From the NCBI GenBank assembly GCA_944393745.1, contig CALYBD010000006.1, positions 1 through 64,000 on the forward strand: a stretch of 64,000 bases of DNA, read 5' to 3'. The stretch comes from an uncultured Alphaproteobacteria bacterium. GTDB taxonomy: Bacteria; Pseudomonadota; Alphaproteobacteria; CAAGCB01; CAG-977. The notes beneath the pieces were generated by a model that was not told the origin of the DNA, did not search any database, and saw only the letters and a program-made list of their open reading frames with translations. Position 1 is the stretch's first letter; every line of letters starts with the position of its first letter. Made by a program: the position numbers and the translations under genes. This document shows, piece after piece, positions 34,538-53,638 of this stretch.

Positions 34538-36448
34538 TTACAGAACCGGACAACCTACCGGCGGGATCGGTGCCAGATCTTCCATATCGCCTTCCAGATT
34601 TTCCTTATATGTCTGGTTGGCCGTTGCATCGGCGGCCGCCGTTAACAGCAGAGAATTAATTTCTGCCGCGTTATCGCGCGTTACACCGACCAGGAATTCC
34701 GTATCCTTCTGCAAAGCGTCCATTGTAACCGTTTCTTCGTCCAAAATCTGAGAAACGGACGGCAACAGCTTTCCGCCGAACGAAGCACGCAGGCTGTTCA
34801 TCTTTGCCTTGGCAGAACTGATTTTTGCGTCCTGCAGCTCTTTCATCTTCTGAACGGCCATGTTGTAATCGGCTTCATTAGCCAGGTCAAACGTTGCCGG
34901 ATTGGGAATCGTATACCCTGCCTTTTCCAAAGTGGCAATGACGTTTTCATTCATTTCTTTGATTGACGCTTCAGCACGTTCTTTGACCGGTTGCTGTTCC
35001 TCTTTGGCAGAAACAAGCATCAGATAAGAACTGATTCTGTTCGTCATCAAAGGCAACGGCATTCTGGGCGTTCCGTCAGAATTGTTTTTGATTTCTCCGG
35101 TTTCGGCATTATAGTCTTCCGGCCGATAACGAACGGTATTTCCGTGCCGTTCAACCAAATTCGACAATTCACCGTCAGCCGCGAAATTATTAATCGACTG
35201 CGTTACCTTAAACCACGGATCCGGCAGTTCCGATGCCATTTCGGGAATCTGTTTTTCAACATTCATGATATACACAGATTCACGCCAGGGCGGCAAAGGC
35301 TTCTGCGGCAGATACGGCGCATCCATCTTCGGTGTGGAATAACCGCTTCTCAGGTTATACGACTGTAATGCCGAAACATAAGCCAGATGTTTTTGATAAA
35401 ATGGTCCTTTATTAATACGGGCACATACATTCTTTTTACCGTCTGTCGCGCCGCACCATTTATCATCGGCTGTTGCCGCCGCATCATTGTAACTGACAGA
35501 AGAAACCGTAATTTCGGGAACTTCGCCGTTATAGTAGTCTTCCGGCAGATAAGAATCCGATGCGCTCATTTTCGGACGCGCCGGGAAAGCACGTGTCCGC
35601 GCAACCCGATTTCCTTCACCGTCCGTGACATAATAAACCGTGGTGTAATGTTTTTCCAATTCCGCATAGAAGTTATCCAAATACACATCATAAACGTGTT
35701 TTTGGTCAACCCACGGTGAAAAGGCTTTTTTCAGATTACCCCATTTTTTCGGATAAGCATAAACATCTTTCAACACGGTATATCCGACATCCCAGCGGAC
35801 TTTTCCGTACGCCGAAGCTTCGTCCATATCCATATCCGTTGTTGCCGTTTCGGCTTCGGCCGTACCGGCTTCCACCATTTTCATGGCTTCTTCTTCGGAT
35901 GTATTTTCGTCAATGGACGCATACGGCGAATCGGAATCCGTTGTCTGCGTCGTTGAGGCATCTTCAGAAGAATCACCCGCGTTAATTTTTGCCTCTAACG
36001 CGCTGAGCTGAGAGGAAGATTCTTCATCGCTTAGCGAATCGGACGCTTCGGCCAAAAGTGTGGAAGCACTGTCTTCTGCCCAAGCGGAAACTTTTTTCCA
36101 TACGGCCGCACCGTCAGAAAAATGCTCGTTAAGCTGAGAGATGTTGCATTCTATGTTCTGAGCCAAACGGCGTTCGATTTCATTATATTTTTCAATACTT
36201 TCCTTGTATTCTTCCAGCTGTTGTTTTTCCGACAGCAGCGAAGTCGCCGTCTGATGCAGATCAAGAGCCGTATTCACATCATCTCTGACTTCTCCTAATT
36301 TCGGATATTGCTGAAAACTGGTATTGGCAACCGTTTCTTTAATTTCCGGCTTTTTATAATCGGCCTTGGCCAAGCTGGAGGAAAAAACAAAGAATCCGGT
36401 GGACAGTATCGTTACTGTCATAAGCGTGTTTTTCAAAGAAGGTTTCAT
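34538..36448 (-). CDS. Large exported coiled-coil protein of the T4SS-like locus
   Basis: Protein of 636 aa with a signal peptide (cleavage after AKA). A helical region at 60-125 (LLSEKQQLEEYKESIEKYNE) is followed by an acidic Ser/Thr/Glu-rich linker (about 150-205), a large central domain with few motifs and a helical C-terminal part ending near a lone cysteine (VGCPVL). It is the last of five exported proteins downstream of the VirB2/B3/B4 genes and has its own terminator. I do not recognise the family. By context it could be a pilus-associated or surface component. Confidence 0.8.
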   Translation of the reverse strand: MKPSLKNTLMTVTILSTGFFVFSSSLAKADYKKPEIKETVANTSFQQYPKLGEVRDDVNTALDLHQTATSLLSEKQQLEEYKESIEKYNEIERRLAQNIECNISQLNEHFSDGAAVWKKVSAWAEDSASTLLAEASDSLSDEESSSQLSALEAKINAGDSSEDASTTQTTDSDSPYASIDENTSEEEAMKMVEAGTAEAETATTDMDMDEASAYGKVRWDVGYTVLKDVYAYPKKWGNLKKAFSPWVDQKHVYDVYLDNFYAELEKHYTTVYYVTDGEGNRVARTRAFPARPKMSASDSYLPEDYYNGEVPEITVSSVSYNDAAATADDKWCGATDGKKNVCARINKGPFYQKHLAYVSALQSYNLRSGYSTPKMDAPYLPQKPLPPWRESVYIMNVEKQIPEMASELPDPWFKVTQSINNFAADGELSNLVERHGNTVRYRPEDYNAETGEIKNNSDGTPRMPLPLMTNRISSYLMLVSAKEEQQPVKERAEASIKEMNENVIATLEKAGYTIPNPATFDLANEADYNMAVQKMKELQDAKISSAKAKMNSLRASFGGKLLPSVSQILDEETVTMDALQKDTEFLVGVTRDNAAEINSLLLTAAADATANQTYKENLEGDMEDLAPIPPVGCPVL

Positions 36449-36477
36449 TTTTTTTCTCCTGTCTTTCTAAAAATTGG

Positions 36478-37254
36478 CTACATGTTGCCGAAAATAGGCT
36501 GATCCAAAATAATACTGTCATTACCCAGCTTCATTGCTGATTCAAGCTGTAATTCCGCAGCCAGCAACTGATTATAAACGATCATCAGCTGATATTCCAT
36601 CAAGTGAGCCGCATAATTTGCCCGCTGCGCCTTATTCAGATCATCGGCACTTTCAATTTGTTTTTGAATATCTTCAGCTGCCGTCATCAGTTCCTCCAGG
36701 CGATTTTGCATAAAGGCTGTATAACCGGCAATTTCCACCGCATTGTTATATTTAAACTGCCCTTGATAATACTTCATCAACAGTTTGTCGTATTGTGTCA
36801 TTTCGGAACCTTCTTGATCCCAACCCGGCCGCAGGAAAATAACTTCAATGGCTTTTGCTATTTCCAACGGGTCCTCGGAATCCATCTGCGGGAATGCCTC
36901 CAAAGAGGTAAATTCTTCGTTCTGAGCCGGCGTTGAACCTTCAAAACTGGGCATATCCAATTTAATGTCAGCCATTGACGGCAGCTCGCCGGAACGAATT
37001 TTTTCCAAAGCATTATCGGCAATTTCTTTTAATTTTGCCTGCCCTTCTTTTAACAAAGCCGCCGGAACATGCGGAATAATCGCCGGAACCGAAGTGAAGT
37101 CAAAAACGGGCATTCCCGGAGTTGCTTTCAAAATCATTTTGAACAGACAAATCGGATTGATCGGCATACACCCCGCCTGCGCCGGTGAAGAAGAAAAAGC
37201 CAGCGCCAAACCGACGGCCAAGAACATTTTTTTCATTTTATTCAAAGTCAACAT
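36478..37254 (-). CDS. Exported VirB5/TrbJ-like helical protein (paralogue 4)
   Basis: A 258-aa exported protein with signal peptide ending PAQA. The C-terminal helices (YNNAVEIAGYTAFMQNRLEE, then YAAHLMEYQLMIVYNQLL) resemble the long helical core of VirB5/TrbJ minor pilins. The start at 37254 is chosen for AAAGGA eight bases upstream; ATGs at 37263 and 37236 are also in frame. It overlaps the end of the next gene upstream, suggesting coupling. VirB5 assignment is by architecture and context, not by a strong sequence match. Confidence 0.7.
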   Translation of the reverse strand: MLTLNKMKKMFLAVGLALAFSSSPAQAGCMPINPICLFKMILKATPGMPVFDFTSVPAIIPHVPAALLKEGQAKLKEIADNALEKIRSGELPSMADIKLDMPSFEGSTPAQNEEFTSLEAFPQMDSEDPLEIAKAIEVIFLRPGWDQEGSEMTQYDKLLMKYYQGQFKYNNAVEIAGYTAFMQNRLEELMTAAEDIQKQIESADDLNKAQRANYAAHLMEYQLMIVYNQLLAAELQLESAMKLGNDSIILDQPIFGNM

Positions 37255-38020
37255 CGATTTCATCCTTTTCTTTCACAGAGTATTCGCCTTCCCCTAATTT
37301 CATATCCTTTGCCGGATCCGGTTTTTTATAACCACTGACGGGCAAGGTATTTAAATGTTCGGCCGTTGTTTGTTTCAAATCAACCAGCAACAATGCAATT
37401 TGATTTAAACGTTCATAATTACCGTTCATAATCATCATTGTATTGGCATTAACGGCATCTTGCAGTGTCTCGGCCGTTTTCATCGCTTCGTCTGCTTTCT
37501 TAAAGCGTTCTTCCGACTGCTGTGCCGAATTGACCACCATATAAAAAGATGTTGCCAATGTTTCCGCTTTTGCAGCTTTCAGCATTTCTGCTCTGGTATC
37601 GTCAATTTCGGTTCTTTCACTCATCGAAATTTCTTTATCTTTAGGCGCAAACATTGTGTCCTGAATTTTACTGGAAGCATCTTTTGCCCCGTTTGCCCCT
37701 TCTGCCGCATCGGAAACAGCAGACTTTTTGCCGCCGGTAAAAGCCCCGGACTGCAATGCGCCTGCCGCAGCCTGACCGATCGCCTTTAAATCCCCCGAAA
37801 CAACGGCCTGACCGACAGCCTGAATCTGTGACATGGTCGTTTTAACCTGATTCACACGGCTTAACACCTGCGGGATCGGCTGAAAACGACCGACCAGATT
37901 TGTAATCAAAGAAGCCAGCTTGGCTACGTCAAATGTCGGCCAACCCTGAGCCTTTGCCTCCGATACAGGCATCAGAAGGGATATTGTCAGCATACTTGTC
38001 AAAATAATCTGCTTTTTCAT
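37238..38020 (-). CDS. Exported VirB5-like helical protein (paralogue 3)
   Basis: A 260-aa exported protein (signal peptide ending EAKA or AKAQ). A first helical part (TNLVGRFQPIPQVLSRVNQV) is followed by an Ala/Gly-rich segment, a Lys/Glu middle and a helical C-terminal region (NANTMMIMNGNYERLNQIAL) that fits the VirB5/TrbJ pattern. No cysteines appear in the mature protein. It lies nine bases downstream of paralogue 2. Confidence 0.7.
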   Translation of the reverse strand: MKKQIILTSMLTISLLMPVSEAKAQGWPTFDVAKLASLITNLVGRFQPIPQVLSRVNQVKTTMSQIQAVGQAVVSGDLKAIGQAAAGALQSGAFTGGKKSAVSDAAEGANGAKDASSKIQDTMFAPKDKEISMSERTEIDDTRAEMLKAAKAETLATSFYMVVNSAQQSEERFKKADEAMKTAETLQDAVNANTMMIMNGNYERLNQIALLLVDLKQTTAEHLNTLPVSGYKKPDPAKDMKLGEGEYSVKEKDEIDVDFE

Positions 38021-38029
38021 ATTCTCCTC

Positions 38030-38713
38030 CTAATTACTTTCCAGCGTTGGTTCCGCCGCCAATAAGTTAGCCGCACCGTCAATATGTGATCTTGTAGACG
38101 TGATCAGCTGTTGATAATTGGCCTGTTCCAGTTTCAACAAAGCAATTTTGTTGATTTCATTTTGCAAATCCGTTTCTGCTTCTTTGCTTTCCGCGTCCTG
38201 GCGCAATTTTTCAATTGTAGCAATATCCTTATCCAATTGTTTGCGTGTCGCGATCGCTTTGCCATATCCGGAAGCCGCCGCCGTATATTGGAACTCTATT
38301 CTTTTTTTGGTTATCTCATCGACTTCGGAGATAGAAGCGTTTTCTTTTTGCAAATAAAGGTTTTTCTGCATCCAGTCGATTGCCGCATCAGGATCGTCAG
38401 CTTTACTGTCAAGACCTTCCGGCAACAACAATAAAGCCTGTTTTGTGCCGCCCTTTTCCGCATTTTTATCAAAAATGCCGCCGGCAGCATTTTTTAACAT
38501 GGCTTTCCAGTCCCCGGATCCGCCCAGATTTTGCAGCATGGTCTCAATATTCATGCTGGACTGAACCTGCTTTAACCCGGAACGAATTTCAGAAAGCTGA
38601 TCCAGAATAGCCTGAATTTTCATGGCAACATCCATTGTCGTCTGGGCTTTGGCCGTTGACGGCGCCCCCAATACAGCTAAGACGGAAACAATAAGAGCGT
38701 ATTTACGTAACAT
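38030..38713 (-). CDS. Exported VirB5-like helical protein (paralogue 2)
   Basis: A 227-aa exported protein with signal peptide ending STAKA. The mature chain starts with an amphipathic helix (MDVAMKIQAILDQLSEIRSG) and ends with long helices (LQNEINKIALLKLEQANYQQ), as in VirB5/TrbJ proteins. Same size class and organisation as its neighbours, with low sequence identity by eye. Confidence 0.7.
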   Translation of the reverse strand: MLRKYALIVSVLAVLGAPSTAKAQTTMDVAMKIQAILDQLSEIRSGLKQVQSSMNIETMLQNLGGSGDWKAMLKNAAGGIFDKNAEKGGTKQALLLLPEGLDSKADDPDAAIDWMQKNLYLQKENASISEVDEITKKRIEFQYTAAASGYGKAIATRKQLDKDIATIEKLRQDAESKEAETDLQNEINKIALLKLEQANYQQLITSTRSHIDGAANLLAAEPTLESN

Positions 38714-38743
38714 TTTTTTTCTCCATCTTAATCAAAGGGCAAA

Positions 38744-39421
38744 TTAATCGCACATTGTATCAATAGCCGATGAGGCGACACTGTTGGCTTCCATCAATGT
38801 TGAAGCCGCAAGCTGTTGATACATCACTTTCAACGTTGCCGTGTTTGCACCGATCAACTGCATCTGGTCATCAGAAGCACTTGATGCTTCCTGCGCCTTT
38901 TTCATATCTTCTCCGCTGGCCAGATTCTGTTGCAAAGCAAAAGAGTTCGCCAATCCTGACATTGCCAGTTCTTTTTTCATACTGTCGCGGGCTTCCCAAC
39001 AGACGTTTCGTTGATCCATATCAACCTCTCCTTCAGAACGCCCCATTTCTTTTGCTTTTTCAATAGCGTCCGTCACTTTTTCCGGATCTTTCATAACATC
39101 TTCGGAAAATCCGGCCTTTGACATTTCCTGAGGAACTTCCATCGCTTTCATGCCACCGCTCAAAGCCGACTTCAGCTGTCCGGAAGCAAAATTTTTCAAA
39201 GCATCCATACTCAGCTTGTCGCCCATAGCCTTGGCCTGTTCGATACCGTTCGTAATCTGATCTTTTACTTTCTTTAATTCATCGATATGCTTCGTTAATT
39301 GATCGATCTGTGTTGCCAGTTCCGCACCGATTGTCGGAATCGGAATCGCCTGCGCTTCATTGCGGAAGAAAAAAGAAACCGCCACCAAACCGAAAATTGC
39401 CGTTTTCTTAAAATAGGTCAT
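38744..39421 (-). CDS. Exported VirB5-like helical protein (paralogue 1)
   Basis: A 225-aa exported protein with signal peptide ending EAQA. The mature chain begins IPTIGAELATQIDQLTKHID, is almost wholly helical and ends in a helical NTATLKVMYQQLAASTLMEA block, the pattern of VirB5/TrbJ minor pilins. It holds two cysteines, one at the very C-terminus. It is the first gene after a clear promoter, 50 bases from its -10. Confidence 0.72.
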   Translation of the reverse strand: MTYFKKTAIFGLVAVSFFFRNEAQAIPIPTIGAELATQIDQLTKHIDELKKVKDQITNGIEQAKAMGDKLSMDALKNFASGQLKSALSGGMKAMEVPQEMSKAGFSEDVMKDPEKVTDAIEKAKEMGRSEGEVDMDQRNVCWEARDSMKKELAMSGLANSFALQQNLASGEDMKKAQEASSASDDQMQLIGANTATLKVMYQQLAASTLMEANSVASSAIDTMCD

Positions 39422-39470
39422 AGAAGCCTCCTTTTTATATTTACAGCTTTGTGCACAGCTTTGCTTACTA

Positions 39471-39499
39471 ATTATAGTTTAACCATACAATTGTGGCAA
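39471..39499 (-). promoter_or_regulatory. Promoter of the VirB5-like operon
   Basis: On the minus strand TTGCCA (39499-39494) and TATAAT (39476-39471) are spaced by 17 bases. The -35 overlaps an AATTGTGGCAAAA motif (39489-39501) that also occurs twice near 2.6 kb. This gives the five exported genes a promoter separate from VirB2-B4. Confidence 0.75.
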
Positions 39500-39563: not shown

Positions 39564-39568
39564 CATCA

Positions 39569-41992
39569 CTATGCTACTTCAAGATATTTTTCGACAAATC
39601 CTTCCGGACCGTACTCTTTCATCAGCTGTTCCGCCAGCAAAACGTGTTTTCGCCCGGAAGAATAAAGTTTCAAAAACGGTCCCAATCCGCTTAAATTCAC
39701 ATCAAGTATAACAGATTCGCCGACGGCCGGTCGCGCAACCAAAATAGCGTATTTTAATTCTTTAAACGCACGGCCGAAAACAAAATCGCGTTCATGCGGT
39801 GTCAAACGCCAGTTTTCATAATCTTCTTCCATGCCTTGCGGGTTACGGAAAAAAATCACCGTCTGACACTGACCGCGAATCACTTCGCCCATTCCCAGCG
39901 AATCCACAATATTCGGTTGTTGGAACGCGCACAAATAAGCCTGACGTTTCTTACGACCTTCCTGCAAACCGATCACAAACTGATCGCGGAACATCGGGTG
40001 TTTCAACATCGGCGCGGTTTCATCGATCATAATCAAACTGGGATCGCCCGTATCGCCGGAAACACTGTGAATACGCTGCATAATATAACTGATAACCGCC
40101 GGAGCCAAAATTTCATCTTCAAAAATATGCGTAAAGTCAAATGCAATAAAACGTGCCGTCATGTCCAGAGTATCATTCGGCGAATTAAAGATCAGCCCGT
40201 ATTGCTGATCATTGACCCAACGGAACAATTCGCGGCGCATGGCTCCTGTCGGTGAAAAACAGCTTTTATGCAGATTTTTCAACGTCCTTTCTTCGGGACG
40301 CAGATAATCAAATGCCGTTGTAACCGCGCGGGCAATTTCTTTTTCGGAAACGGCATCGTCAACCATTGTGATCGCCTTTAACCAACGACGCAAAAAGGCT
40401 CTGTTTTCAGGTGTGTCGCGACAGGAAAAAGGATTCATGGACGTTGAATCTTTATCACCGTCAAAATTAACGTAAGCCCCCTGAATCGCCCGGCAGAAAA
40501 CTTCCACACCTCTGTGACGGTCAAAAAAGTAAACGCGCAGATCACTGTGACGCATGGCCTGACCGGCCAGAAAAGCCAGTAATGTCGTTTTACCTTGACC
40601 GGTCGACCCCAGCAAAATACAGTGAGCCACGGCATTTGCGGCAGCCGTTACGTGGAACTGCCAACGATATGCCGTTCCGCTGATTGTTTTGAAAATCGTA
40701 ATCGGCCCGGGGCCCCAGTCGCTGCTGGCGTTGCCTTCCGGCGCTTTTTCCAGGTTGATTGCCGTCGCAACGGCACGCGACAGATATGTATATGTTCGGG
40801 GATAAATATCATATGTCGGGAACTGAGCAAAGAAAGACGCCTGCGCAATCCAACCTTCACGCACGGGCGTAACACCATATAAACGGCACAACCGTTCCAC
40901 TTCCATCTGTCCGAATTCAATTTCATCTTTTGTCATGCCGAAAATAAACAACGTCATGGAATAATGGCACAGTGTCTGCGTATCGCTGTCTGCCGAATCG
41001 ATTAATTCAATGGCTTCATCATACTGATCAAGCGTTGAACCTGAAAAACTGGTCACTCTGGTCATGCGTTTTTGCTGCATTAAAAGAGCCAACGCCTGAA
41101 GTTTCGGAATCGGCGTTACCGTATGCAGCATTGTGACTTCGACATTGATGGACAAAAGATCCGAAACCATCTGTTCGTCCATATAATCACCGGAGCTGCG
41201 AATCCCCATGACGATCCCGAACATTTCATAATCCCCTTTAAAAAAGCGGATCAGTCCTTCATCACCGGTAAAGTGGATATAATCTGCCGTCAGCATAGAT
41301 TTTAATTCGGCGCCTTCCAAAGAACCGATTCGGGGACGCGGCATGGTCACCGGGCTGCACAAGCGGGCAAAAAAAGTAAACGGGCTTTGATCCAGGTCGC
41401 TTTCCTTTGTTTCAAACAGCTGCACCGGTTCATACATATCTAAAATCGATGTCAACGCCTGCGCTGCCTGCGTTAAATCACGGTCATGATTTTTACGTTC
41501 TTTAACGGATAAAACGACATAATGTTTATTTCTGAAAACACGGCTCAGATTTTCTGTCCATTGTTCGGCAATTGCCGCCAGAATAGGATTTTCATGGCGC
41601 ACTTCCTCTCCTAACGGAATCATTTCCCGAATGGTTAAAACGCGAACAGTTACATTCAAATCGCCCATAGCGTCAATGAAGCTTTTACGGGCTTCCAGCA
41701 TATTTGCACGCAATTCGGGCTGGATCATGGCGACATCAGCGCCCCTGACGGAAAAAACACGCACCAAAGAACCGTCATGACATTCAATGGTCGTTCCGTC
41801 ATCTTTTAAACGTTCAAACGGCAAAAAATCACTGACCTGAGTTTCCTGCGGTTTGGGCAGAATTAATTCCCCCAATTTCGTTGCCAACAGCCCCGCGAAA
41901 GCAGCCGCGGAAACGATTCCCAGGATACTGACCAGAACTTCACCTGTTCCCAGGCTTTGAATAAAAATGGAAAAAATACTTTCAGGGGGCAA
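39569..41992 (-). CDS. virB4: VirB4-family T4SS/conjugation ATPase
   Basis: Large pilus-assembly ATPase (807 aa). In type IV secretion VirB4 extracts VirB2 pilin from the inner membrane and powers substrate transfer. It has an N-terminal hydrophobic segment (residues 16-36), the CagE/TrbE-type middle region, Walker A GSTGQGKTTLL near residue 462 and Walker B SLIMIDETAPML near 650. I chose the TTG start at 41992 because AAAGGA lies seven bases upstream and it overlaps the VirB3 stop by 11 bases; the frame's earlier ATG at 42088 would lie deep inside virB3. Distinguishing VirB4 from TraC-type is not attempted. Confidence 0.92.
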   Translation of the reverse strand: MPPESIFSIFIQSLGTGEVLVSILGIVSAAAFAGLLATKLGELILPKPQETQVSDFLPFERLKDDGTTIECHDGSLVRVFSVRGADVAMIQPELRANMLEARKSFIDAMGDLNVTVRVLTIREMIPLGEEVRHENPILAAIAEQWTENLSRVFRNKHYVVLSVKERKNHDRDLTQAAQALTSILDMYEPVQLFETKESDLDQSPFTFFARLCSPVTMPRPRIGSLEGAELKSMLTADYIHFTGDEGLIRFFKGDYEMFGIVMGIRSSGDYMDEQMVSDLLSINVEVTMLHTVTPIPKLQALALLMQQKRMTRVTSFSGSTLDQYDEAIELIDSADSDTQTLCHYSMTLFIFGMTKDEIEFGQMEVERLCRLYGVTPVREGWIAQASFFAQFPTYDIYPRTYTYLSRAVATAINLEKAPEGNASSDWGPGPITIFKTISGTAYRWQFHVTAAANAVAHCILLGSTGQGKTTLLAFLAGQAMRHSDLRVYFFDRHRGVEVFCRAIQGAYVNFDGDKDSTSMNPFSCRDTPENRAFLRRWLKAITMVDDAVSEKEIARAVTTAFDYLRPEERTLKNLHKSCFSPTGAMRRELFRWVNDQQYGLIFNSPNDTLDMTARFIAFDFTHIFEDEILAPAVISYIMQRIHSVSGDTGDPSLIMIDETAPMLKHPMFRDQFVIGLQEGRKKRQAYLCAFQQPNIVDSLGMGEVIRGQCQTVIFFRNPQGMEEDYENWRLTPHERDFVFGRAFKELKYAILVARPAVGESVILDVNLSGLGPFLKLYSSGRKHVLLAEQLMKEYGPEGFVEKYLEVA

Positions 41993-42272
41993 GTTTAGTT
42001 CCTTTACTTTTATAAATATTTTTAGAACCGCCGGACATCGGCCCGAAAGCCCGTACCATCGCAGATAAGTGCGGTTCACGGGAACCATAAATAATCAAAA
42101 TGATATGAGCAATGACAATCGGAATAACAGATACCAAAGGATTCATATCGTATACGCCCATTCCTATAAACATAAAAGGAAACTGTATCATCAGATTTAC
42201 CAATGCCGGCAGAAACGGTGCCCAAAAAATTCTGGGCGGCATAGCTACTGCTTTTAAAATCGGTTCCCGCAT
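41982..42272 (-). CDS. virB3: VirB3-like inner-membrane protein
   Basis: A 96-aa membrane protein with an N-terminal polar segment, two closely spaced hydrophobic helices (IFWAPFLPALVNLMIQFPFM, then VSVIPIVIAHIILIIYG) and a basic tail, the typical VirB3/TrbD topology. Its position directly before VirB4 and after a VirB2-like pilin is the canonical order. Assignment rests on size, topology and context. Confidence 0.85.
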   Translation of the reverse strand: MREPILKAVAMPPRIFWAPFLPALVNLMIQFPFMFIGMGVYDMNPLVSVIPIVIAHIILIIYGSREPHLSAMVRAFGPMSGGSKNIYKSKGTKLAP

Positions 42273-42431: not shown

Positions 42432-42737
42432 TTAGAAAGAATCGTTGTAGCCTGCGTCCGAGGTGTTCGTGAAGTACGTAACAATCTTAGCTGCAATTGC
42501 CAGAATGAACAAACCAAAGGCCAAAGCACCACACCATTTCCAGTTTACTTTACCGAAAACAGCACCGACAGCCATACCGACCAGACCGAAACCGCCTAAA
42601 ACGAAAACAACCGTTTTAACGTTATTAAACAGTTCCACACCCTTTGAGGTAACGGTTCCGAATGCATCACCTCCGGCTGCTGAAGCTTCCGGACAAACGG
42701 CGAATAACATAGCTAATGCTAAATATAACAGTTTCAT
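42432..42737 (-). CDS. virB2: VirB2/TrbC-like pilin
   Basis: A 101-aa precursor: signal peptide to about residue 20 (EASAA), short loop, then two hydrophobic helices (VVFVLGGFGLVGMAVGAVFG and WCGALAFGLFILAIAAKIVT) joined by a short polar loop KVNWK, as in VirB2 major pilins. AAGGAG precedes the start. It is first in the VirB2-B3-B4 unit and followed by a terminator, typical of a pilin made in excess. No type IV prepilin motif is present. Confidence 0.88.
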   Translation of the reverse strand: MKLLYLALAMLFAVCPEASAAGGDAFGTVTSKGVELFNNVKTVVFVLGGFGLVGMAVGAVFGKVNWKWCGALAFGLFILAIAAKIVTYFTNTSDAGYNDSF

Positions 42738-43046
42738 TTCAGTTCTCCTTGTTTTAAGGTTAAATGTCCTTCATACCCTCAGAATATGAAAAACCGCCGA
42801 CGATGTCTACAACAAAAAAAAACTTCCAAAAAACGCGTAACCCATTGATATATATATTATATTTCAAAAAATTACACTCAGGTCAAAAAATTGTCACGAA
42901 TTTGAAATATTTAGAACCACTGCCCCTTGCAAAGATTTTTTTACTAATATATCGGAAAATCAACAGAAATTTACTGATAGTTAACAACTTTGCAGATAAA
43001 CTTTGAAAAATATATTTGTATTCTGTCAATCCGATAAAGTAAAAAA
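42738..43046. other. AT-rich divergent intergenic region
   Basis: This 309-base AT-rich spacer separates the minus-strand virB2 unit from the plus-strand OmpA-like gene. It holds the virB2 promoter at 42781-42809. Toward the plus-strand gene I see only AT-rich stretches (TATATATATTATAT near 42848) and no confident promoter or ribosome binding site. Confidence 0.6.
42781..42809 (-). promoter_or_regulatory. Putative virB2 promoter
   Basis: On the minus strand TAGACA (42809-42804) and TATTCT (42786-42781) are spaced by 17 bases, 44 bases before the virB2 start. Confidence 0.5.
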
Positions 43047-45446: not shown

Positions 45447-45613
45447 TTTTCCGCCCGGATTGAAAAATCCGCAAAAAGCTGCTATTTTTTATACGGGTCA
45501 CGAAAAAACAAACACTGTATACGGTTTTTGTTTTTATAAAGGATTTTTTAAATAATTTAATGCTTTAATTATAATCCTAAAGAAGCGTTTTGATTCAATT
45601 TTTGGAGATTGTT

Positions 45614-46303
45614 ATGGCGTATCCATATAAAAAAATCAGTATATTCAGCCTGTTAACGACTGTTTTTTTACTGAACGGGTGCACTCAGCTGATTGAAAGT
45701 GATCCGGCGTGGCCCGGTGTTTCCGCCGGCACTGTTTCTTCGGCTCCTGATTTTACGGCACCAGTCGGCGGCGGACAGTTCGGACAAAGAACGCCCCCCG
45801 ATGTTTTGCAAAACACCTATGGATATCGCGGTGAAGATTTGGCCGCAACAGCGCCGAGTGCCGTCGGCACAAACGGTTTATACAGCTATGACAGCTCAAA
45901 AGAAACAACCTTAAACGCCGACACGTTAAACAATGCTCAAAAAAGTACTGCGGAAACGCAGGAAAGCAACGCTTCATCTTCCGCTGCCGACAATTCGGGT
46001 CAGACCGGCAGTGAAGAATTATATGATCCGGCAGATCCGGTTGAAGACTGGTTGGCGACAGAAGGGTCTTCCGTTCGTTCTTTGTTAACAGAATGGGGGG
46101 ATAAAGCCGGCTGGCGTGTTGTATGGAGCACCGACCGCGAATATATCCTGGAAGCAGGTGCCATGTTCCGCGGACGGTTCATGGACGTTGCTTCGGCTTT
46201 GATTCGTTCGTTTGCCCGTGCAAGACCGGCGCCGTGGGCCACGTTTTATAAAGGAAACCGCGTATTGGTAGTGACGACTCAGGAGGACGAAAATGCGGAC
46301 TAA
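45614..46303 (+). CDS. PilL/TcpQ-like lipoprotein
   Basis: A 229-aa lipoprotein with lipobox LNGC. The middle is Ser/Thr/Ala-rich. The C-terminal 85 residues (VEDWLATEGSSVRSLLTEWG, then WRVVWSTDREY and FRGRFMDVASALIRSF) match the TcpQ C-terminal domain that docks type IVb pilus secretins and is found in R64 PilL. The start at 45614 has GGAG six bases upstream. It overlaps the secretin gene by 11 bases. It would sit in the outer membrane as the secretin pilotin or partner. Confidence 0.85.
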   Translation: MAYPYKKISIFSLLTTVFLLNGCTQLIESDPAWPGVSAGTVSSAPDFTAPVGGGQFGQRTPPDVLQNTYGYRGEDLAATAPSAVGTNGLYSYDSSKETTLNADTLNNAQKSTAETQESNASSSAADNSGQTGSEELYDPADPVEDWLATEGSSVRSLLTEWGDKAGWRVVWSTDREYILEAGAMFRGRFMDVASALIRSFARARPAPWATFYKGNRVLVVTTQEDENAD

Positions 46304-47876
46304 ACAGTTATTCTTTATTTTCAGCGCCTGCCTGATCGGGCTGACTTCCTGTTCGCTCTATCGTTCCACGTTAAAAGAAACCGATCGATTGATTGATAAA
46401 ATCGAAGGAACGCTGGAACGTCCTTTCACCCCGACCGACCAATATAAATTAGATACAATCGCCGTCAAAGACGATATCTGGCTGGGCAATCAAAGCGTTC
46501 GCGTCAACGAAGGCGATCCGTTGCCGGCACGTTTTGAAACAGATGACGGCATTACTTTGGTTTCCACAACCCCTGTTTCTTTGTTGCAGATTTCCGAACA
46601 AATTACTTCACTGACGGGAATTACCGTCCGCGTTGACGATATGATTTTAAATGAAGTTCGGGACGCCACACAGGCAGAAGCAAGCGATGTTCAAATCGGC
46701 GGTATTTCCAATAATACCAGTACAGAATTGTTTATGCCGGCTTATTCGGGGAAATTAAGCGGATTGCTGGATCAGATCGTTTCCCGTTTCGCCCTGTGGT
46801 GGAGGTATAAAAACGGCGTTATTACTTTCTATAAGATGGAAACGCGCGTTTTCACGATTTACGCCTTACCCGTTACTTCGTCCATGAATGCGAATATCGC
46901 CGGAACGTCATCGGGTGAAAGCGGCGGTTCGACGTCGGCGTCCATGGATTCTTCCATTGAACTGGATTTCTGGACTCAGTTGGAAGAAGCCGTTTCCGCC
47001 ATGCTGCCCGAAGGTGCCACGCTGAATATTATTCCGACAAACGGAACAATGACTGTCACCGCGCCGCCGTTTACATTGCAGCGTATTTCTCAGTACGTCA
47101 ACAGCATGAATGAAAAACTGGCGCGTCAGGTGGCGATTTCCGTTAAAGTGCTGAACGTTACGCTGAGCAACAGCCAGCAAATGACGTTAAACGTAAAATC
47201 GGTTTTGAATTTCTTGAATGAAAAACTGAAATTTAACCTGAATTCCAGCTCTCCGACGGTTGAAAATGTCAGCAGTGACCTGAGCATGACGTTAATTCCC
47301 GGGGATAAACACATCGGACAGACCGACTTGATTATTCAGGCCTTAAACGCCCAAGGAACAACGTCTTTGATGACCAGCGCATCCATTACGACCATGAACA
47401 ACAGAATCGCGCCGATTCAGGTTTCAACGGACGAATCTTACGTCGAAAAAATTGAAACAACCATGAACACCGACACGACGTCTACGTCCATTACACCGGC
47501 AAAAATCAACTATGGTTTCACCATGGAGGTTCTGCCGCGTATTTTGGATCACGGCCGGTTATTGATGATGTTTACAATGACTTTAACCGAACTGGAAGAA
47601 ATGGGTGTGGCAACCGGCGGCGGAGAAGATTCTCAGACTCAAGTACAACTGCCGAAAATCAGAACACGCGGCTTTGTTCAGGAAGTCGCCATGATGTCGG
47701 GATCGACCCTGATGTTGACGGGATTTGAACAGGTTCAGACGTCAACAGGAAACGACAAACAGCTTTTTTCCGTAAACAACAATGCAGACAAAAACCGCAA
47801 CATCATGGTTATTCTGCTGACGCCGGAAGTTTTGATTTCTCCGCTTTCACCGGAGACAAGAATGCTGAACGTATAA
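46293..47876 (+). CDS. pilN: Type IVb pilus secretin PilN family
   Basis: Outer-membrane secretin lipoprotein (527 aa; lipobox LTSC), equal in size to R64 PilN/TcpC-type proteins. N-domains (ISEQITSLTGITVRVDDMIL, then a STN-like LSGLLDQIVSRFALWWRYK) are followed by the C-terminal secretin domain from about residue 255, with the PKIRTRGFVQEVAMMSGSTL strand region and MVILLTPEV at the end. It would form the gated outer-membrane channel of the pilus-like machine. Confidence 0.93.
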   Translation: MRTKQLFFIFSACLIGLTSCSLYRSTLKETDRLIDKIEGTLERPFTPTDQYKLDTIAVKDDIWLGNQSVRVNEGDPLPARFETDDGITLVSTTPVSLLQISEQITSLTGITVRVDDMILNEVRDATQAEASDVQIGGISNNTSTELFMPAYSGKLSGLLDQIVSRFALWWRYKNGVITFYKMETRVFTIYALPVTSSMNANIAGTSSGESGGSTSASMDSSIELDFWTQLEEAVSAMLPEGATLNIIPTNGTMTVTAPPFTLQRISQYVNSMNEKLARQVAISVKVLNVTLSNSQQMTLNVKSVLNFLNEKLKFNLNSSSPTVENVSSDLSMTLIPGDKHIGQTDLIIQALNAQGTTSLMTSASITTMNNRIAPIQVSTDESYVEKIETTMNTDTTSTSITPAKINYGFTMEVLPRILDHGRLLMMFTMTLTELEEMGVATGGGEDSQTQVQLPKIRTRGFVQEVAMMSGSTLMLTGFEQVQTSTGNDKQLFSVNNNADKNRNIMVILLTPEVLISPLSPETRMLNV

Positions 47877-47890
47877 CGGGATAATTGACA

Positions 47891-49273
47891 ATGGCCGCAG
47901 ATGATGAAGAACTGACCCTGGACGATCTGGAGGAAGATACCGACAGTGAAGTCACCTTTGAAGAAGGGGGCGAAGAGGAAGAAAATGCCGAACCGTCCTG
48001 GGGTCCGACGATTGTCGTAAACGACACGACATATGCCGTCACGCTGTTTTGGCAGCCATTGCAGGACACAAACGATCCTTATCCGGAAGTCCAGGAAACC
48101 GTTGACAACTTTATGGAAGGCGCCGATCTGTTCTGCCTGCGTCAGGGGACATCGCCGCAATACGGTATCGGCAATTCGACCGAAGGACATAAAGCAGGCA
48201 TGCCGTCTGCGGCAGCGGCCATTGCCGAAGTATTTCAGGACAAACCGTCTTCCGTTGCCGTCTTTGAAGTAGATGAAGGCTGGTGGTTTATTGCCATCAG
48301 AAACGACCTGATTCTGTCTGAAGAAGATATGCTGTATTTAAACGAAGAAGACGCCAAAAGAGCTTTTTACGCCATGATGGCCGTTCCGGACTGGGGACGG
48401 AAAATCGCGCCGGCTTCTTGGGAAATAGAAGGTACGGAAGAAGTTGATCTGTGGGATATCTTAAAAGAACCCGGCGGATCAAAACTGATGCACATCAATA
48501 AAAATCAGCGTCAAAAAATGAAGCTGATTACAATCGGTGCGGGCGTTGTTCTTTTGTTTATTGTTTATAAACTGCTTTCCGGCCTGTTTTCTTCCGACGA
48601 AAAACCCATAATCCGACCATTGGCACCGATGAAGCCTTTATTTGAGGAAGAAGCCCCCAAACAAAAAGCTGTCGTTGTCCACCCCTGGGAAAAACTGGTC
48701 GTTACCGAAGATCTGTTGAATCGCTGTCAGGCGGCGGCATGGCAGATAAAAACCATGGTTATTCCGGGCTGGAGTCTGGGGACTATTTCCTGTTCGGCTT
48801 CGGGACTATCCACAACATGGTCAATGCAGTGGGGACATTTAGGGTGGCTGAAACGCGCTTTTGAAGAATACAATACGCGCGGATTGGATTTTCTGATTGA
48901 TAATTCCGGAAGAACCGCCATCGTCAGTCTGTCGATCGGCGATGTTGCGATTCATTCTCAGACACCTAAAATGATGATTTTCGAATCGCGCGAAGAATTA
49001 AATAATATTTTCCAAGCGATTAATCAGACCATCACCATGTCAGAGGTAAGACCGCAAATAACAACGCAGACATCTGCAGACGGATTGGGACTGGACGTAA
49101 AACAAACGTTCGTTTATCCGCGTTTGAATTTTTCTTTTTCTTCTGATTTGCCGATGGAAGAATGGATAACTTTGTTTAATAAATTTCCGGCCTTGGAAAT
49201 AATGCGGTTGAATTACGATCCGAACAGCAACATCTGGACTTATGAGGGACAAATCTATGAACCAATTCCTTAA
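47891..49273 (+). CDS. pilO: Type IVb pilus protein PilO family
   Basis: Inner-membrane assembly protein (460 aa). An acidic N-terminal tail and a cytoplasmic actin-like/PilM-like region (LFWQPLQDTNDPYPEVQETV) precede a single membrane helix at about 209-232 (LITIGAGVVLLFIVYKLL) and a periplasmic domain, the layout of R64 PilO. The start at 47891 gives MAADDEELT; an upstream TTG at 47885 is in frame. It overlaps pilP by 17 bases. Confidence 0.87.
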   Translation: MAADDEELTLDDLEEDTDSEVTFEEGGEEEENAEPSWGPTIVVNDTTYAVTLFWQPLQDTNDPYPEVQETVDNFMEGADLFCLRQGTSPQYGIGNSTEGHKAGMPSAAAAIAEVFQDKPSSVAVFEVDEGWWFIAIRNDLILSEEDMLYLNEEDAKRAFYAMMAVPDWGRKIAPASWEIEGTEEVDLWDILKEPGGSKLMHINKNQRQKMKLITIGAGVVLLFIVYKLLSGLFSSDEKPIIRPLAPMKPLFEEEAPKQKAVVVHPWEKLVVTEDLLNRCQAAAWQIKTMVIPGWSLGTISCSASGLSTTWSMQWGHLGWLKRAFEEYNTRGLDFLIDNSGRTAIVSLSIGDVAIHSQTPKMMIFESREELNNIFQAINQTITMSEVRPQITTQTSADGLGLDVKQTFVYPRLNFSFSSDLPMEEWITLFNKFPALEIMRLNYDPNSNIWTYEGQIYEPIP

Positions 49274-50777
49274 AAAATATTTTTGGCTGGCAGCAATGGT
49301 TATTTCCGTTTCTGTCCCGGCAGCAAACGCAGATGATTTGTTTGACGATTCCTTTTTTGCGGATCCGGCTCCTGTTGATGCGGTAAAACCGGCCGATGAT
49401 CCGAAGGCGCAAACGCCGGAACCGGCAGCAGAACCGGCAGCAGAACCGGCAGCTCCGGCGGAAACGGCTGCGGAAACACCCGCACCGGCTCCCGCTCCGG
49501 CAGAAATTCCGGCGCCCGACTCGGCGGCACCGGCAGAAACGCCGGATCCTGTTCCGACGCCGGCTGAAACACCGGCCCCCGTCCCGGAACCGACACCTGC
49601 GCCGTCTCTTGCCGAACCGCAGTTATCTTTGGATATACCGACTGTTCCGGCGCCGTCCTCGGATACAAATGTCCCCCCGCCGCCCAGTACGTCTGCTCCC
49701 TCAGCACCGGCCGGCCTTAATTTCGGCACAACCGGCGCCGGCGCCATGAATTTGTCAACGCCGCCCAGCGAACAGATTTTAGGAAAAGTTTCCAGCGACA
49801 TTTTCCGTGAAATGGCGGAAATGGAACGTGAAAACAGCACGCTGATGCTGGAATTAAAACGCGAACAGTTGCGTTCCGAAATTGATGCCCTGAAAACCTC
49901 TAACCGTCAGATGTTATTTGATGAAATCGAACGGCGTGAAAAAATGACTCAGGCGCGTTTGGAATGGGAACTGGCTCAGGATTTAAAACGTCAGGAAGCT
50001 TTGGAAAGAAGACAACGGGCAGAAATTCGTCAAAAACAAATTGAAGCTGCTCTGAAACGCGAAGAAGACAGACGTATTCAGAAAATGAAAGATGAAGAAG
50101 CCGCCCGTATTCAGAAAGAAAAAGAAGAAAAAGAAAGAATCTTGCAAAAAAGAGCCGAATTAAAGAAAAAATATGATGCTGCTTCTTTGGTTCGTCTGAA
50201 CAATCTGAAGCCCATTTTGATGGCGGCCACGCGTCCGGCAAAAATCAAACGATCGGCTTCTTCACGTATTCCAAAGGCCTTGACGACAACAGGAGAAGAT
50301 CTGCTGACAAAGAAAAAAGCCGGTGAGGCTTTGACCGTAGAAGTCCCGGCCGAAGGAGAAAATAAAGAAGAAAAAGCCCGTGAACCGGCTTCGGCATTGT
50401 ATGCCGTTTCGGAAATTCGCGGTACGGCAGGAGCCTTGATTGCAAAACTGATTTCCAAAAAAGACAAAACGACCTTTTTTGCCAAAAAAAGCACTATTCT
50501 GCCGACAGGGCACACAGTGATCGGTATTGAAAAAGATTTCGTTCTGGTTCAAATCGGCAAGGATAAAGAAATGATCGGCTTCCCGTCTGCCGGATTGCTT
50601 TCCGATACGCCGAACACCGCAACGGAACAAAACAATAATGACGATGAAAATGCCCGCAGAGAAAGGGCAGAACGCCGTCGGGCAGAACGGGAAGAACGCC
50701 GCCGCAGAGCCGCCCCGCAAGTTTCGGCAACAGCCGGAGTGGGACCAAGCTTTTCGGGCGCAAGCCTGGCCAGATAA
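49257..50777 (+). CDS. pilP: Type IVb pilus PilP-like protein, greatly extended
   Basis: A 506-aa exported protein (signal peptide ending ANA). It has a Pro/Ala/Glu-rich region (about 30-165), a long coiled coil (about 180-310, RREKMTQARLEWELAQDLKR) and a C-terminal PilP domain at about 383-450 (VSEIRGTAGALIAKLI through VLVQIGKDKEMIGF), ending in an Arg/Glu-rich tail. R64 PilP is about 150 aa, so two thirds here are added. The start at 49257 has AGGGA upstream. It would link the inner-membrane platform to the secretin across the periplasm. Confidence 0.85.
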   Translation: MNQFLKKYFWLAAMVISVSVPAANADDLFDDSFFADPAPVDAVKPADDPKAQTPEPAAEPAAEPAAPAETAAETPAPAPAPAEIPAPDSAAPAETPDPVPTPAETPAPVPEPTPAPSLAEPQLSLDIPTVPAPSSDTNVPPPPSTSAPSAPAGLNFGTTGAGAMNLSTPPSEQILGKVSSDIFREMAEMERENSTLMLELKREQLRSEIDALKTSNRQMLFDEIERREKMTQARLEWELAQDLKRQEALERRQRAEIRQKQIEAALKREEDRRIQKMKDEEAARIQKEKEEKERILQKRAELKKKYDAASLVRLNNLKPILMAATRPAKIKRSASSRIPKALTTTGEDLLTKKKAGEALTVEVPAEGENKEEKAREPASALYAVSEIRGTAGALIAKLISKKDKTTFFAKKSTILPTGHTVIGIEKDFVLVQIGKDKEMIGFPSAGLLSDTPNTATEQNNNDDENARRERAERRRAEREERRRRAAPQVSATAGVGPSFSGASLAR

Positions 50778-50854
50778 ACACAAAATCGACAGGGAGGGTT
50801 TTCTCCCTGTCGGCTTTTAAAAGGCGTTGATGCATGAAAGAAGGTTGAAAAACA

Positions 50855-52534
50855 ATGCCGTTACCAGTCAAACCAAAAACAGGAACCGCTTCGCCGGCTG
50901 CGCAAAGCGGTTCTGGCGCGCCTGCGCAACAGGCCAAAGCAGCACCGAAAAAGACTTCGGAAGTTTTAAATGAACTTTTTGCCAACGGAAAATGCATTAC
51001 GGCGCCTTCCGGGTCTTTTCCCGTTAAAGACGACACGCGCAATCTGTTGGCTTTGTTCGACAACGGACGGTTTCTGGTCAGTTCGGAACACAAATTTGAC
51101 GGCCGTGTTTTAAGCTTTGAAGTGTTGGCCAGAAAAAAGAAACTGCAGGTCAACAAAGCCGAATATGTCCCGTCTACCCTGATCAAGGCAATTTACGAAC
51201 GCGCCGAAAAAGAAGCGCCGGAAGAAGTCCCCGAAGAAACCGGCAGTGCCGCGGATCTTGAACAGCTGCAAATGCAAAAAGACTATGTGGCTGTTCTAAG
51301 CAAAGCTGCAGCCGTTAAAGTTTCCGACGTGCACGTTGTGGTCGGCACGCATAAAACAGAAGTCTTTTTCCGTCAAAACGGCATGATGCAGGTTGTCATG
51401 GAAAACACCAAAGACTGGGGCGAAGCTTTTGTGCGCGCTGCTTTTGCGTCTTCTGACATTTCAGATGCAAACTACGCGCAAAACGAATATCAGGCTGCCC
51501 AAAAAATCGGGGACGCCCCGCTGCGCGGTTCCAACGGTAAGCTGCGTCTGCCGAAATTGGTGTTAGGGGTACGTCTGCAATTTAACCCGATTGCTTTCGG
51601 AACACGATATCTGGTTATGCGTCTGCTGTATGCCGATGAAGATCCCGATAACGCCGGCGATCTGATGGCTTTGGGATACACGCAACGCGAAGCCGATATG
51701 TTTTACCGTCTGCGCGCCGTGCCGATCGGCATTATCATTGTGGCGGGACCGACGGGATCGGGAAAATCAACGACGCTGCAGCGCAATATGATTTCTTTGC
51801 TGCAGGAACGCAATTACGAACTTAATCTGATCACCGTGGAAGACCCGCCCGAATACCCGATTCCCGGCGCCCGTCAGATGCCGGTGACAAACGCGAACAC
51901 GGAAGCTTTAAAAGAACAGGAATTCACAAAAGCTCTGGCCGCTTCGCTTCGTTCCGACCCGGATATGCTGATGATCGGAGAAATCCGTACGTTATCTTCG
52001 GCTCAGTTGGCTTTTAAAGGCGCGCTGTCGGGGCACGGCGTGTGGTCAACACTGCATGCGAACTCATCACCGGCAGTGGTTATGCGTTTCCGTGACATGG
52101 GCGTTGAAACGTTTAAGCTGATCGATCCTGAAATTATGAAAGGCATGGTGTCCCAGCGTCTGTTCCGCCGCGTATGCCCGAACTGCCGGATTCCCGTTTC
52201 GCAAAAACCGGATCACCCGACCGTTCAACGTTTACGCAAAGCATACGGTGATTTCGGAATGGAACAGGCTTTTTTGCGCGGCGAAGGGTGTCCGGAATGC
52301 AACGGAAACGGTTGTAAAGGTCGCTGCGTTGTCGGGGAAATTCTGCTGCCCGACGCAACCTTTTTAAATTTGCTGGTCAACGGCGAAACAAAAAAAGCAA
52401 TTGACTACTGGACGGGAGACCTTGGCGGGCGTACAATGAAAGACTGCGCGATAGAACGAATGTTAAACGGACTGATCGATGCCGAAGAAGTCGAACGCTG
52501 GTGCGGTCTGTTAGATGAAAGACCGATTTATTAA
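50855..52534 (+). CDS. pilQ: Type IVb pilus assembly ATPase PilQ (GspE/PilB family)
   Basis: Cytoplasmic secretion ATPase (559 aa). Walker A AGPTGSGKSTTL is near residue 300, the Asp box ITVEDPPEYPI follows, Walker B DPDMLMIGEIRT is near 368 and the His box is GVWSTLHANSS. A tetracysteine zinc site, CPNC near 441 and CPECNGNGC near 480, is present. The N-terminal 100 residues are an unusual linker-plus-domain. It is the only motor of this type here, with no retraction PilT. Confidence 0.93.
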   Translation: MPLPVKPKTGTASPAAQSGSGAPAQQAKAAPKKTSEVLNELFANGKCITAPSGSFPVKDDTRNLLALFDNGRFLVSSEHKFDGRVLSFEVLARKKKLQVNKAEYVPSTLIKAIYERAEKEAPEEVPEETGSAADLEQLQMQKDYVAVLSKAAAVKVSDVHVVVGTHKTEVFFRQNGMMQVVMENTKDWGEAFVRAAFASSDISDANYAQNEYQAAQKIGDAPLRGSNGKLRLPKLVLGVRLQFNPIAFGTRYLVMRLLYADEDPDNAGDLMALGYTQREADMFYRLRAVPIGIIIVAGPTGSGKSTTLQRNMISLLQERNYELNLITVEDPPEYPIPGARQMPVTNANTEALKEQEFTKALAASLRSDPDMLMIGEIRTLSSAQLAFKGALSGHGVWSTLHANSSPAVVMRFRDMGVETFKLIDPEIMKGMVSQRLFRRVCPNCRIPVSQKPDHPTVQRLRKAYGDFGMEQAFLRGEGCPECNGNGCKGRCVVGEILLPDATFLNLLVNGETKKAIDYWTGDLGGRTMKDCAIERMLNGLIDAEEVERWCGLLDERPIY

Positions 52535-52549
52535 CAAAAGAGGATACAA

Positions 52550-53638
52550 ATGGCCAAAAGTAAGTTTAATCTGGCGGACATTAACCGTTATTATGCGATG
52601 ATTATCTGCAGAATGAGCAACGGCGCACGGTTAAAAATTTACCGTAAGCTGATTTCTCTTTTGCGCAACCGGTTTTCTTTGATGGACGCTTTGGATCGTA
52701 TCAGAGCAATTATTACAAATGACGGAAAAAATCCCGATGAACCTTTGGCTTTGGCGATTTTGTACTGGTCCCGTTCATTACAAAACGGTAATCCGTTTTC
52801 CGTTGCTTTGGAAGGCTGGGCGCCGGCCAGCGAACGCCTGATGCTGTCGGTCGGTGACGTTTCCCATCTGGAAGGTGCGCTTGAAAACCTGATCAAAGTG
52901 ACCGAAGGAACGACAAAAATGAAACAACCGCTGGTCAGCGCGATCAGTTACCCGATGTTTTTGTCCATGATGACCGTGCTGATTATTTACGCAATCGGCG
53001 TGTACATGGTTCCGCCGATGATGAATGCGGCACCGAACACCCGCTGGACCGGCACTGCCCGCGATCTGGTACAGCTGTCCGTATGGATTCAGAAAAACTG
53101 GCTGATTGCTTTTGCTTTCCTGCCGACAGTCTTCTTTCTGATTTATCTGACATTGGGCCGCTGGAAAGGTAAAACGCGTTCCTGGTTTGATAATGTGCCG
53201 CCTTGGTCTTTGTATCGTATTTTCGTCGGTGTCACCTGGATGCTGGCAATGGCCGCCTTGGTGCGCGCCGGAACGCCCGTTTCTCAGGCACTGCGTTCTC
53301 TGCGTCATGATGCCAGCCCGTACTTGCTCTACCGAATTGACAGCGCTTTGGTCTTTATTAACAACGGTGATAACTTGGGCGAAGCGTTGAACAAATCCGG
53401 ACTGGGCTTTCCGGACAAAGAAATTATCGGCGATCTGCGTATTTATTCCGAAATGGACAACTTCCAAGGCGCTTTGGATCAAATGGCAAACGAGTGGCTG
53501 GAAAACAGCGTGACCGGTATTTCAGAAAAAGCTGCCGTTTTGAACATGGTGGCAACCCTGTTCGTTTCCGGCGCAATTGCCTGGGCGGTTATGGGAACGT
53601 TTTCCATGCAGGACCAAATTACAAAAGCAATGGGATAA
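52550..53638 (+). CDS. pilR: Type IVb pilus inner-membrane platform protein PilR (GspF family)
   Basis: Polytopic membrane protein (362 aa) with two T2SSF repeats and hydrophobic helices at about 140-160, 185-205 and near the C-terminus. It recruits the ATPase and forms the base of pilus assembly. It carries LMLSVGDVSHLEGALENLIK in the first repeat and the matching FPDKEIIGDLRIYSEMDNFQ in the second. It starts 16 bases after pilQ and is followed by a terminator, so it ends the operon. Confidence 0.92.
   Translation: MAKSKFNLADINRYYAMIICRMSNGARLKIYRKLISLLRNRFSLMDALDRIRAIITNDGKNPDEPLALAILYWSRSLQNGNPFSVALEGWAPASERLMLSVGDVSHLEGALENLIKVTEGTTKMKQPLVSAISYPMFLSMMTVLIIYAIGVYMVPPMMNAAPNTRWTGTARDLVQLSVWIQKNWLIAFAFLPTVFFLIYLTLGRWKGKTRSWFDNVPPWSLYRIFVGVTWMLAMAALVRAGTPVSQALRSLRHDASPYLLYRIDSALVFINNGDNLGEALNKSGLGFPDKEIIGDLRIYSEMDNFQGALDQMANEWLENSVTGISEKAAVLNMVATLFVSGAIAWAVMGTFSMQDQITKAMG

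Follow-up and report, generated by a model that had tools for sequence, protein, structure and literature searches.

Type IVb-kind pili and type IV secretion systems (T4SSs) are encoded together on the IncI plasmids R64 and TP114. The pilus of TP114 (IncI2) stabilises mating pairs in broth, and deletion of its pilS or pilV abolishes transfer in broth without significantly impeding transfer on a solid support (PMC9045228), the secretion system of IncI plasmids being Dot/Icm-like (PMC12857230). For PAPI-1 of Pseudomonas aeruginosa a chimera of VirB4, VirD4 and a pilus has been proposed (PMC12857230), and a plasmid with a type IV pilus as well as a T4SS is already in print (PMC6232867). A pairing like that of the IncI plasmids is found in the stretch of 64,000 nucleotides analysed here (hereafter the window), which corresponds to positions 1-64000 of contig C6 (CALYBD010000006.1) in the genome of an uncultured Alphaproteobacteria bacterium (GCA_944393745.1; 2.25 Mb, 60 contigs, 99% complete). 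Judging from profile matches, the gene block at 34538-53638 encodes components of a P-type VirB/D4 secretion system and of a type IVb pilus, and its conservation suggests that these two machines are used jointly.

All open reading frames (ORFs) named in this block by a first-pass annotation of the DNA are present in the ORF listing, and the head-to-head layout that it described is confirmed by these ORFs and by family matches from Pfam and NCBIfam profile searches (Table 1). The minus strand carries, in this order, VirB2, a VirB3-like protein, VirB4 and five exported-looking proteins (x1 to x5), down to position 34538, where the ATP synthase operon adjoins; the plus strand carries a 799-aa protein followed by TcpQ (PilL-like), PilN, PilO, PilP, PilQ and PilR, ending at 53638. 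This gene order is not due to chance, since it recurs in dozens of genomes.

The expectation that related genomes would conserve both the co-occurrence and the order of the two halves was borne out. Of 397 confirmed loci from relatives the best 80 were taken, and 59 of these, with at least 8 kb of sequence upstream of VirB4, were scored for linkage (the 21 with too little upstream sequence were omitted). The record titles give nearly all of these relatives as uncultured Alphaproteobacteria, Rhodospirillales or proteobacteria that are known through genome assembly; a body site is given for 18 of the 80 loci, and in all 18 it is the rumen, another part of the gut or faeces. The pil and virB genes are arranged head-to-head at 49 of the 59 loci and co-directionally at two (L165, and L118, seen by the end of PilR and a pilin gene only), and eight lack pil genes at this place; the two co-directional loci indicate that linkage survives a change of orientation. 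A single block joining pil, virB2-3-4 and VirB8/9 genes can be identified in 33 of the 51 loci with both flanks. One record, L126, is labelled Lactobacillaceae and carries the same head-to-head cluster as the Alphaproteobacteria; its label is probably wrong.

A similar distribution emerges from a set of 61 genomes, which overlaps with the 80-locus set in at least 11 assemblies. Both PilN (E <1e-70) and VirB4 (at least 55% identity) are present in 16 of these genomes, the source genome included; the two blocks are head-to-head on one contig in 11 (in G004 by PilL beside VirB2 only), a fragment of VirB2 stands at the end of the pil contig in G049, and the genes are split over contigs in G006, G013, G042 and G058, the pieces of G013 looking unlinked. 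Of 385 genomes drawn class-wide, 34 have a VirB4 (counted from 39% identity upwards), 42 have PilN (E 1e-20 or lower) and 23 have both. At 52% identity or more, VirB4 is present in 22 genomes of this draw, 20 of which have PilN (exceptions G100 and G260), and PilN occurs in at least one genome of all nine families with such a VirB4. Over the relatives, VirB4, VirB9 and PilN covary in their identity to the window copies (Spearman 0.95-0.97), a relation not counted as support because shared ancestry alone would produce it. The pil-virB linkage is old and real, and is kept across families.

The first-pass annotation had held that each half lacks its usual partners, and from this had proposed a single hybrid envelope machine. 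Partner genes can, however, be identified for both halves in the same genome, which rules out a hybrid argued from missing partners. On the secretion side, there are three VirB4 genes (contigs C6, C8 and C59) and three VirB10 genes (C5, C8 and C59), with VirB11 on the same three contigs as VirB10. Contig C5 carries two VirB8 (E 2.7e-14 and 8e-22) and one VirB9 (E 1.2e-13), all over their cut-offs, a VirB10 (TrbI E 1.8e-30, over cut-off) and a VirB11 (TIGR02788 E 1.4e-42, 146 bits, below the 250-bit cut-off), and no VirB4 was found on it. Since the C8 and C59 sets each have their own VirB3, B4, B8, B9, B10 and VirD4, the C5 set is the candidate partner of the window VirB4. Contig C9 carries a VirD4 (PF02534 E 1.6e-56) and a tandem of three membrane proteins, of which the leading one is a VirB6 by Pfam (TrbL 27.1 bits, just over cut-off); no relaxase was found among the 11 ORFs scanned at C9.

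We infer that a single secretion system is encoded jointly by C6, C5 and C9, because VirB4, VirB8 and VirB9 stand in a single cluster in G032 and G021 (VirB4 72% and 40% identical, respectively), because VirB8 or VirB9 genes follow VirB4 in 43 of the 61 loci for which 9 kb or more of downstream sequence was available, and because the C9 VirD4 is close to the vir-cluster VirD4 of G021 and G030 (E 2e-186 and 4e-191) and far from those of C8 and C59 (only E 2e-33 and 2e-34).

Several of these secretion genes have features of their own. The C5 VirB10 (L016:5846-12892) is a protein of 2348 aa with an N-terminal hydrophobic segment, a beta-flower repeat array (Pfam Bflower_2, 13 stretches, E 2.9e-138) and a TrbI domain, and the place of VirB10 is taken by a 2332-aa gene in G010 and by one of which more than 2500 aa could be read in G032; CagY of Helicobacter pylori is also a giant VirB10, but with alpha-helical repeats according to the available text of PMC2581425. 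The C5 VirB9 (L016:4341-5870) ends in a C-terminal SPOR domain (PF05036 E 3.8e-05, over cut-off). The two further VirB/D4 sets of the source genome, on C8 and C59 (L014, L015), look alike by eye, and a lower-identity VirB4 of their kind occurs in five of the ten other genomes of the family that have the window VirB4 (G002, G004, G006, G009 and, in part, G001), so that these sets are perhaps mobile.

On the pilus side, three type IV pilin genes lie directly 3' of PilR in G049, and pilin genes lie there likewise in G032. No pilin gene was found within the window; with a G049 pilin as query, three homologues were found on other contigs of the source genome (C20, C14 and C24), one of them over the N_methyl cut-off, and these are called type IVb by association, since such genes follow PilR in G049 and G032. 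Pilin homologues are present in 18 of the 61 genomes, which include all but one of the 17 that have a PilN at E <1e-70. The source genome also has one prepilin peptidase, on C51 (Peptidase_A24 E 3.1e-14), and a PilT-like ATPase on C3, below its family cut-off.

The conserved linkage is more probably than otherwise a sign of joint use of the type IVb pilus and the VirB/D4 system. The pilus would find, pull in or hold a neighbouring cell, into which the VirB/D4 system would then deliver DNA or protein; we infer that both machines are expressed, assembled and acting on the same contact, and likewise what the cargo and the target cell would be. The IncI plasmids are a precedent for such joint use, with a different secretion system. 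A number of observations weigh against this explanation. In the class-wide draw, one block stands alone in some lineages (VirB4 only in 11 genomes, PilN only in 19), and the co-occurrence value of p 1.2e-17 (Fisher) ignores shared ancestry and depends on thresholds set after the tables had been seen. Three genomes with more distant VirB4 (G079, G198 and G368, 41-42%) have both blocks on the same contig ~120-130 kb apart, in G378 (55%) they lie ~20 kb apart on one strand, and in G025 (30%) they are far apart. As to the dispersed secretion system, a family match exists for just one of the three VirB6-like genes on C9, no match to the C5 VirB9 was found in G049, which has VirB4 and PilN and is listed as 100% complete (part of its genome is N), and G010 has the C5-type VirB9 but neither VirB4 nor PilN. 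The linkage itself could be an inherited neighbourhood. In that case the two machines would work independently, their genes being neighbours merely by ancestral order, and the unlinked lineages with both blocks and the lineages with one block only would fit well, as would the clustering of linkage on a quick VirB4 tree of 61 rows, where the linked state changes five times and five of the eight unlinked loci fall in one small clade. Yet in this family virB2-3-4 have stayed beside pil although the secretion genes are at three loci and the pilins apart, and the linkage has outlived the change of orientation seen at L165 and, to the extent visible there, L118; independence is thus an unlikely explanation, if one to be taken seriously.

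A single physical hybrid, in which VirB4/VirB2 and PilQ/PilR/PilN would share an envelope channel akin to the PAPI-1 chimera, is the form in which the first-pass annotation had cast the locus. The observations that it had named as telling against a hybrid were largely made, namely partner genes elsewhere in the genome and relatives with unlinked blocks (the eight loci without pil genes, and G079, G198 and G368). A shared channel would account for VirB2-3-4 adjoining the pil operon also in genomes whose other secretion genes lie elsewhere. The gene directly after VirB9 encodes an MshL-like secretin in G030, where PilB- and PilC-like genes come next, and, judging from a fragment, in G043; a published counterpart would be the chimera put forward for PAPI-1 (PMC12857230). 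Both halves, however, have their own partners (VirB8-11 and VirD4; pilins and peptidase), and VirB8, VirB9 and VirB10 are present, unlike in the available description of PAPI-1, so that one hybrid machine, which none of the observations requires, appears improbable; slightly more improbable still is a joined envelope machine with VirB4 and PilQ/PilR on a common secretin-ended channel together with a second such joining in G030 and G043. A further explanation would be a domesticated or decaying conjugative element, once a mating channel with a mating pilus and now functionless. The nearest plasmid relatives of VirB4 (39% and 36%) do belong to sets of the order virB2-3-4-x-8-9-10-11-virD4 with a MobA/MobL relaxase gene nearby, but these two plasmid loci are without an annotated pil gene (many genes there being hypothetical), no relaxase gene accompanies VirD4 among the scanned C9 ORFs, the window ORFs are full-length, and VirB4 is 86-94% identical in eight of the ten other family members that have it. 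The alignment of VirB4 crosses one stop codon in five of the ten; this stop falls before the likely true start, since the same genomes have open frames of 807-826 aa, and the true start of the window VirB4 is probably ~32 codons inside the longest ORF (in several relatives the protein has 807 aa). Decay is very unlikely.

Table 1. Features of the pil-virB block in the window, with the evidence for each. The labels exported (x1 to x5) and lipoprotein (TcpQ-domain protein) were judged from the look of the N-termini only.
Feature	Position	Strand	Evidence
x5, exported-looking, 636 aa	34538..36448	-	No family over cut-off; largely helical model, mean pLDDT 65
x4, exported-looking, 261 aa	36478..37263	-	No family over cut-off
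x3, exported-looking, 260 aa	37238..38020	-	No family over cut-off
x2, exported-looking, 227 aa, VirB5-position candidate	38030..38713	-	No family over cut-off
x1, exported-looking, 225 aa, VirB5-position candidate	38744..39421	-	No family over cut-off
VirB4 ATPase	39569..42088	-	PF03135 E 1.3e-13, over cut-off; TIGR00929 E 1.9e-107, below its cut-off
VirB3-like protein	41982..42272	-	No convincing family match; size, two hydrophobic segments, position, relatives' profile
VirB2/TrbC pilin	42432..42737	-	PF04956 TrbC E 1.4e-7, over cut-off
Divergent intergenic region, 309 bp	42738..43046	.	Blocks conserved in family
799-aa protein	43047..45446	+	One N-terminal hydrophobic segment, long Pro/Lys-rich middle; kept in relatives
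TcpQ-domain protein, PilL-like, lipoprotein by look	45590..46303	+	PF10671 E 2.8e-16
PilN-type secretin	46293..47876	+	PF00263 E 1.4e-11; TIGR02520 PilN E 3.5e-77, 260 bits, below the 288-bit cut-off
PilO pilin accessory protein	47885..49273	+	PF06864 E 6.3e-18
PilP-like protein	49242..50777	+	TIGR03021 E 0.011, below cut-off; named mainly by position
PilQ assembly ATPase	50855..52534	+	PF00437 T2SSE E 1.7e-64
PilR platform protein	52550..53638	+	PF00482 T2SSF E 3.3e-23

Structural and profile comparisons add to the assignments in the table. The closest solved structures are TrwK/VirB4 for VirB4 (E 8.5e-38) and BfpB for the PilN secretin (E 1.5e-54), and the relatives' VirB3 profile also matches the VirB3-position genes of the C8 and C59 T4SSs (E 5e-10 and 8e-10). 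No Pfam match to the VirB5 family was found among x1-x4, though they stand at the place of VirB5; profile comparisons with a plasmid VirB5 (hhalign) were weak for x1 (41% probability over 34 columns) and x2 (17%), x2 reached 8% against the first gene after VirB4 of the Microvirga plasmid discussed below, and the predicted model of x1 (mean pLDDT 44) is too poor for use. Counterparts of x5 occupy the same place in relatives and are larger and very divergent, and no fold in the PDB matches its model at E<=0.001. A profile of the 799-aa protein, which might span the periplasm, has a match flanked by TcpQ and the vir genes at each of the 49 head-to-head loci, with composition bias a possible contributor.

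The family-conserved blocks of the divergent intergenic region (42738-43046) include GTTAACTATCNGTAAAT. Three such blocks were sought in ten other stretches of the source genome, allowing 3, 3 and 6 mismatches; outside the window they gave matches at the mismatch limits only (1, 6 and 3, respectively), none of them immediately upstream of a vir or pilin gene, and the same search on the shuffled window gave 2, 7 and 0 matches per 192 kb. A regulatory site shared by the dispersed loci thus receives no support from this search of ten stretches.

A second lineage associates vir genes with pilus genes of another kind. In G030 (L082:2012-8651), an MshL-like secretin gene (TIGR02519 E 3e-33, below cut-off) comes after VirB8 and VirB9. 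Next are genes for a small protein, for a PilB/GspE-like ATPase that contains an MshEN domain and for a protein resembling PilC/GspF; two genes without assignment follow, and then, convergently on the opposite strand, VirD4 and VirB11. The start of a similar secretin follows VirB9 in G043 (L083:2763-3371) just before the contig ends, and in G021 a lipoprotein-like protein without family stands at the place of the G030 secretin. This association is counted as separate from that of the window, because the secretin of G030 resembles MshL more closely than PilN.

Tandem VirB2 genes also occur upstream of VirB3, the last of them often very large, up to 1896 aa (for example L117:4485-9614, L118:3885-9575, L143:4165-9570 and L061:2454-5675). 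In a profile search, 38 of 175 VirB2-like proteins exceed 300 aa, and Pfam TrbC matches, all below cut-off, lie inside the three tested proteins of more than 1000 aa; the positions of domains in these giant proteins are unsure, since a member of 1073 aa was among the sequences from which the VirB2 profile was built.

Among other bacteria, the basal Rickettsiales have been described as having a P-type T4SS (PMC9352585) and type 4 pilus components (PMC10847448), with no mention of linkage in the available portions of these texts. The available text on the predator Vampirovibrio, for which a role of a T4SS in predation is proposed (PMC4451040), and that on rumen ciliates and their bacteria (PMC6079354) are silent on pil/virB linkage, and among the matches listed in the literature search no title or opening of an abstract describes a pilus-T4SS pairing in these bacteria. 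The Rickettsiales rvh T4SS, as presented in the available parts of PMC2653234 and PMC11077975, is a P-type system dispersed over the genome, with VirB8 duplicated and several VirB6-like proteins, and in all these respects it resembles the alphaproteobacterial system described here. The present system differs in that the C5 set is without a second VirB9, VirB4 has no duplicate belonging to the same system, the VirB10 is a repeat protein of 2348 aa, and there is a link to a type IVb pilus operon; membership of the rvh type is ruled out by the single VirB9 on C5 and by the other VirB4 genes belonging to the separate C8 and C59 sets.

The closest plasmid VirB4 proteins are those of pMVF16-3 of Microvirga sp. 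VF16 (39%) and of an Erythrobacter aureus plasmid (36%). By annotation, both plasmids share with the present system the order virB2-3-4-x-8-9-10-11-virD4, but they differ in having a MobA/MobL relaxase gene nearby and VirB10 genes of ordinary length. The closest plasmid PilO (28%) is that of pBSY19_1 of Bosea sp. RAC05, where TcpQ, secretin, PilO2, ATPase and platform genes follow in the same order; that cluster differs in including PilV, and no T4SS genes are annotated within the 25 kb shown. The pilus half has the components of a type IVb pilus of the R64/TCP/Bfp kind (TcpQ/PilL, PilN below the TIGR02520 cut-off, PilO, PilQ and PilR, with pilin and prepilin peptidase encoded on other contigs), and it is like Bfp and TCP in its secretin, nearest to BfpB, and in its TcpQ domain, differing from them in that the pilin homologues lie away from the operon.

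Like the window, PAPI-1 has type IV pilus genes together with VirB4 and VirD4; only two clear T4SS homologues are described for it in the available part of its source, whereas this genome also has VirB2, B3, B8, B9, B10 and B11, and the VirB8-B11 genes on C5 rule out membership of a PAPI-1-like chimera. Unlike the IncI plasmids, the pilus is accompanied here not by a Dot/Icm-like system but by a VirB/D4 system with a VirB2-type pilin, its secretion genes matching VirB, TrbC, CagX, TrbI and T4SS-DNA_transf families; and the block, present in most of the family's genomes, lies here by the ATP synthase operon on its contig, no relaxase having turned up in the part scanned. In the available text of the cited work, the known pilus-T4SS pairings are on plasmids or a mobile island and involve a Dot/Icm-like or a minimal secretion set, whereas here a VirB/D4 system and a type IVb pilus are kept together from family to family among uncultured Alphaproteobacteria, many of which come from animal guts. 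Should the two act jointly, they would make up a widespread apparatus for contact and delivery, and a natural place to ask whether pilus motors and VirB machines share parts, a question that the available text leaves open for PAPI-1 too. The pairing of a pilus with a secretion system was thus already known; what is new is a VirB/D4 system as the secretion partner of the pilus, spread over whole families.

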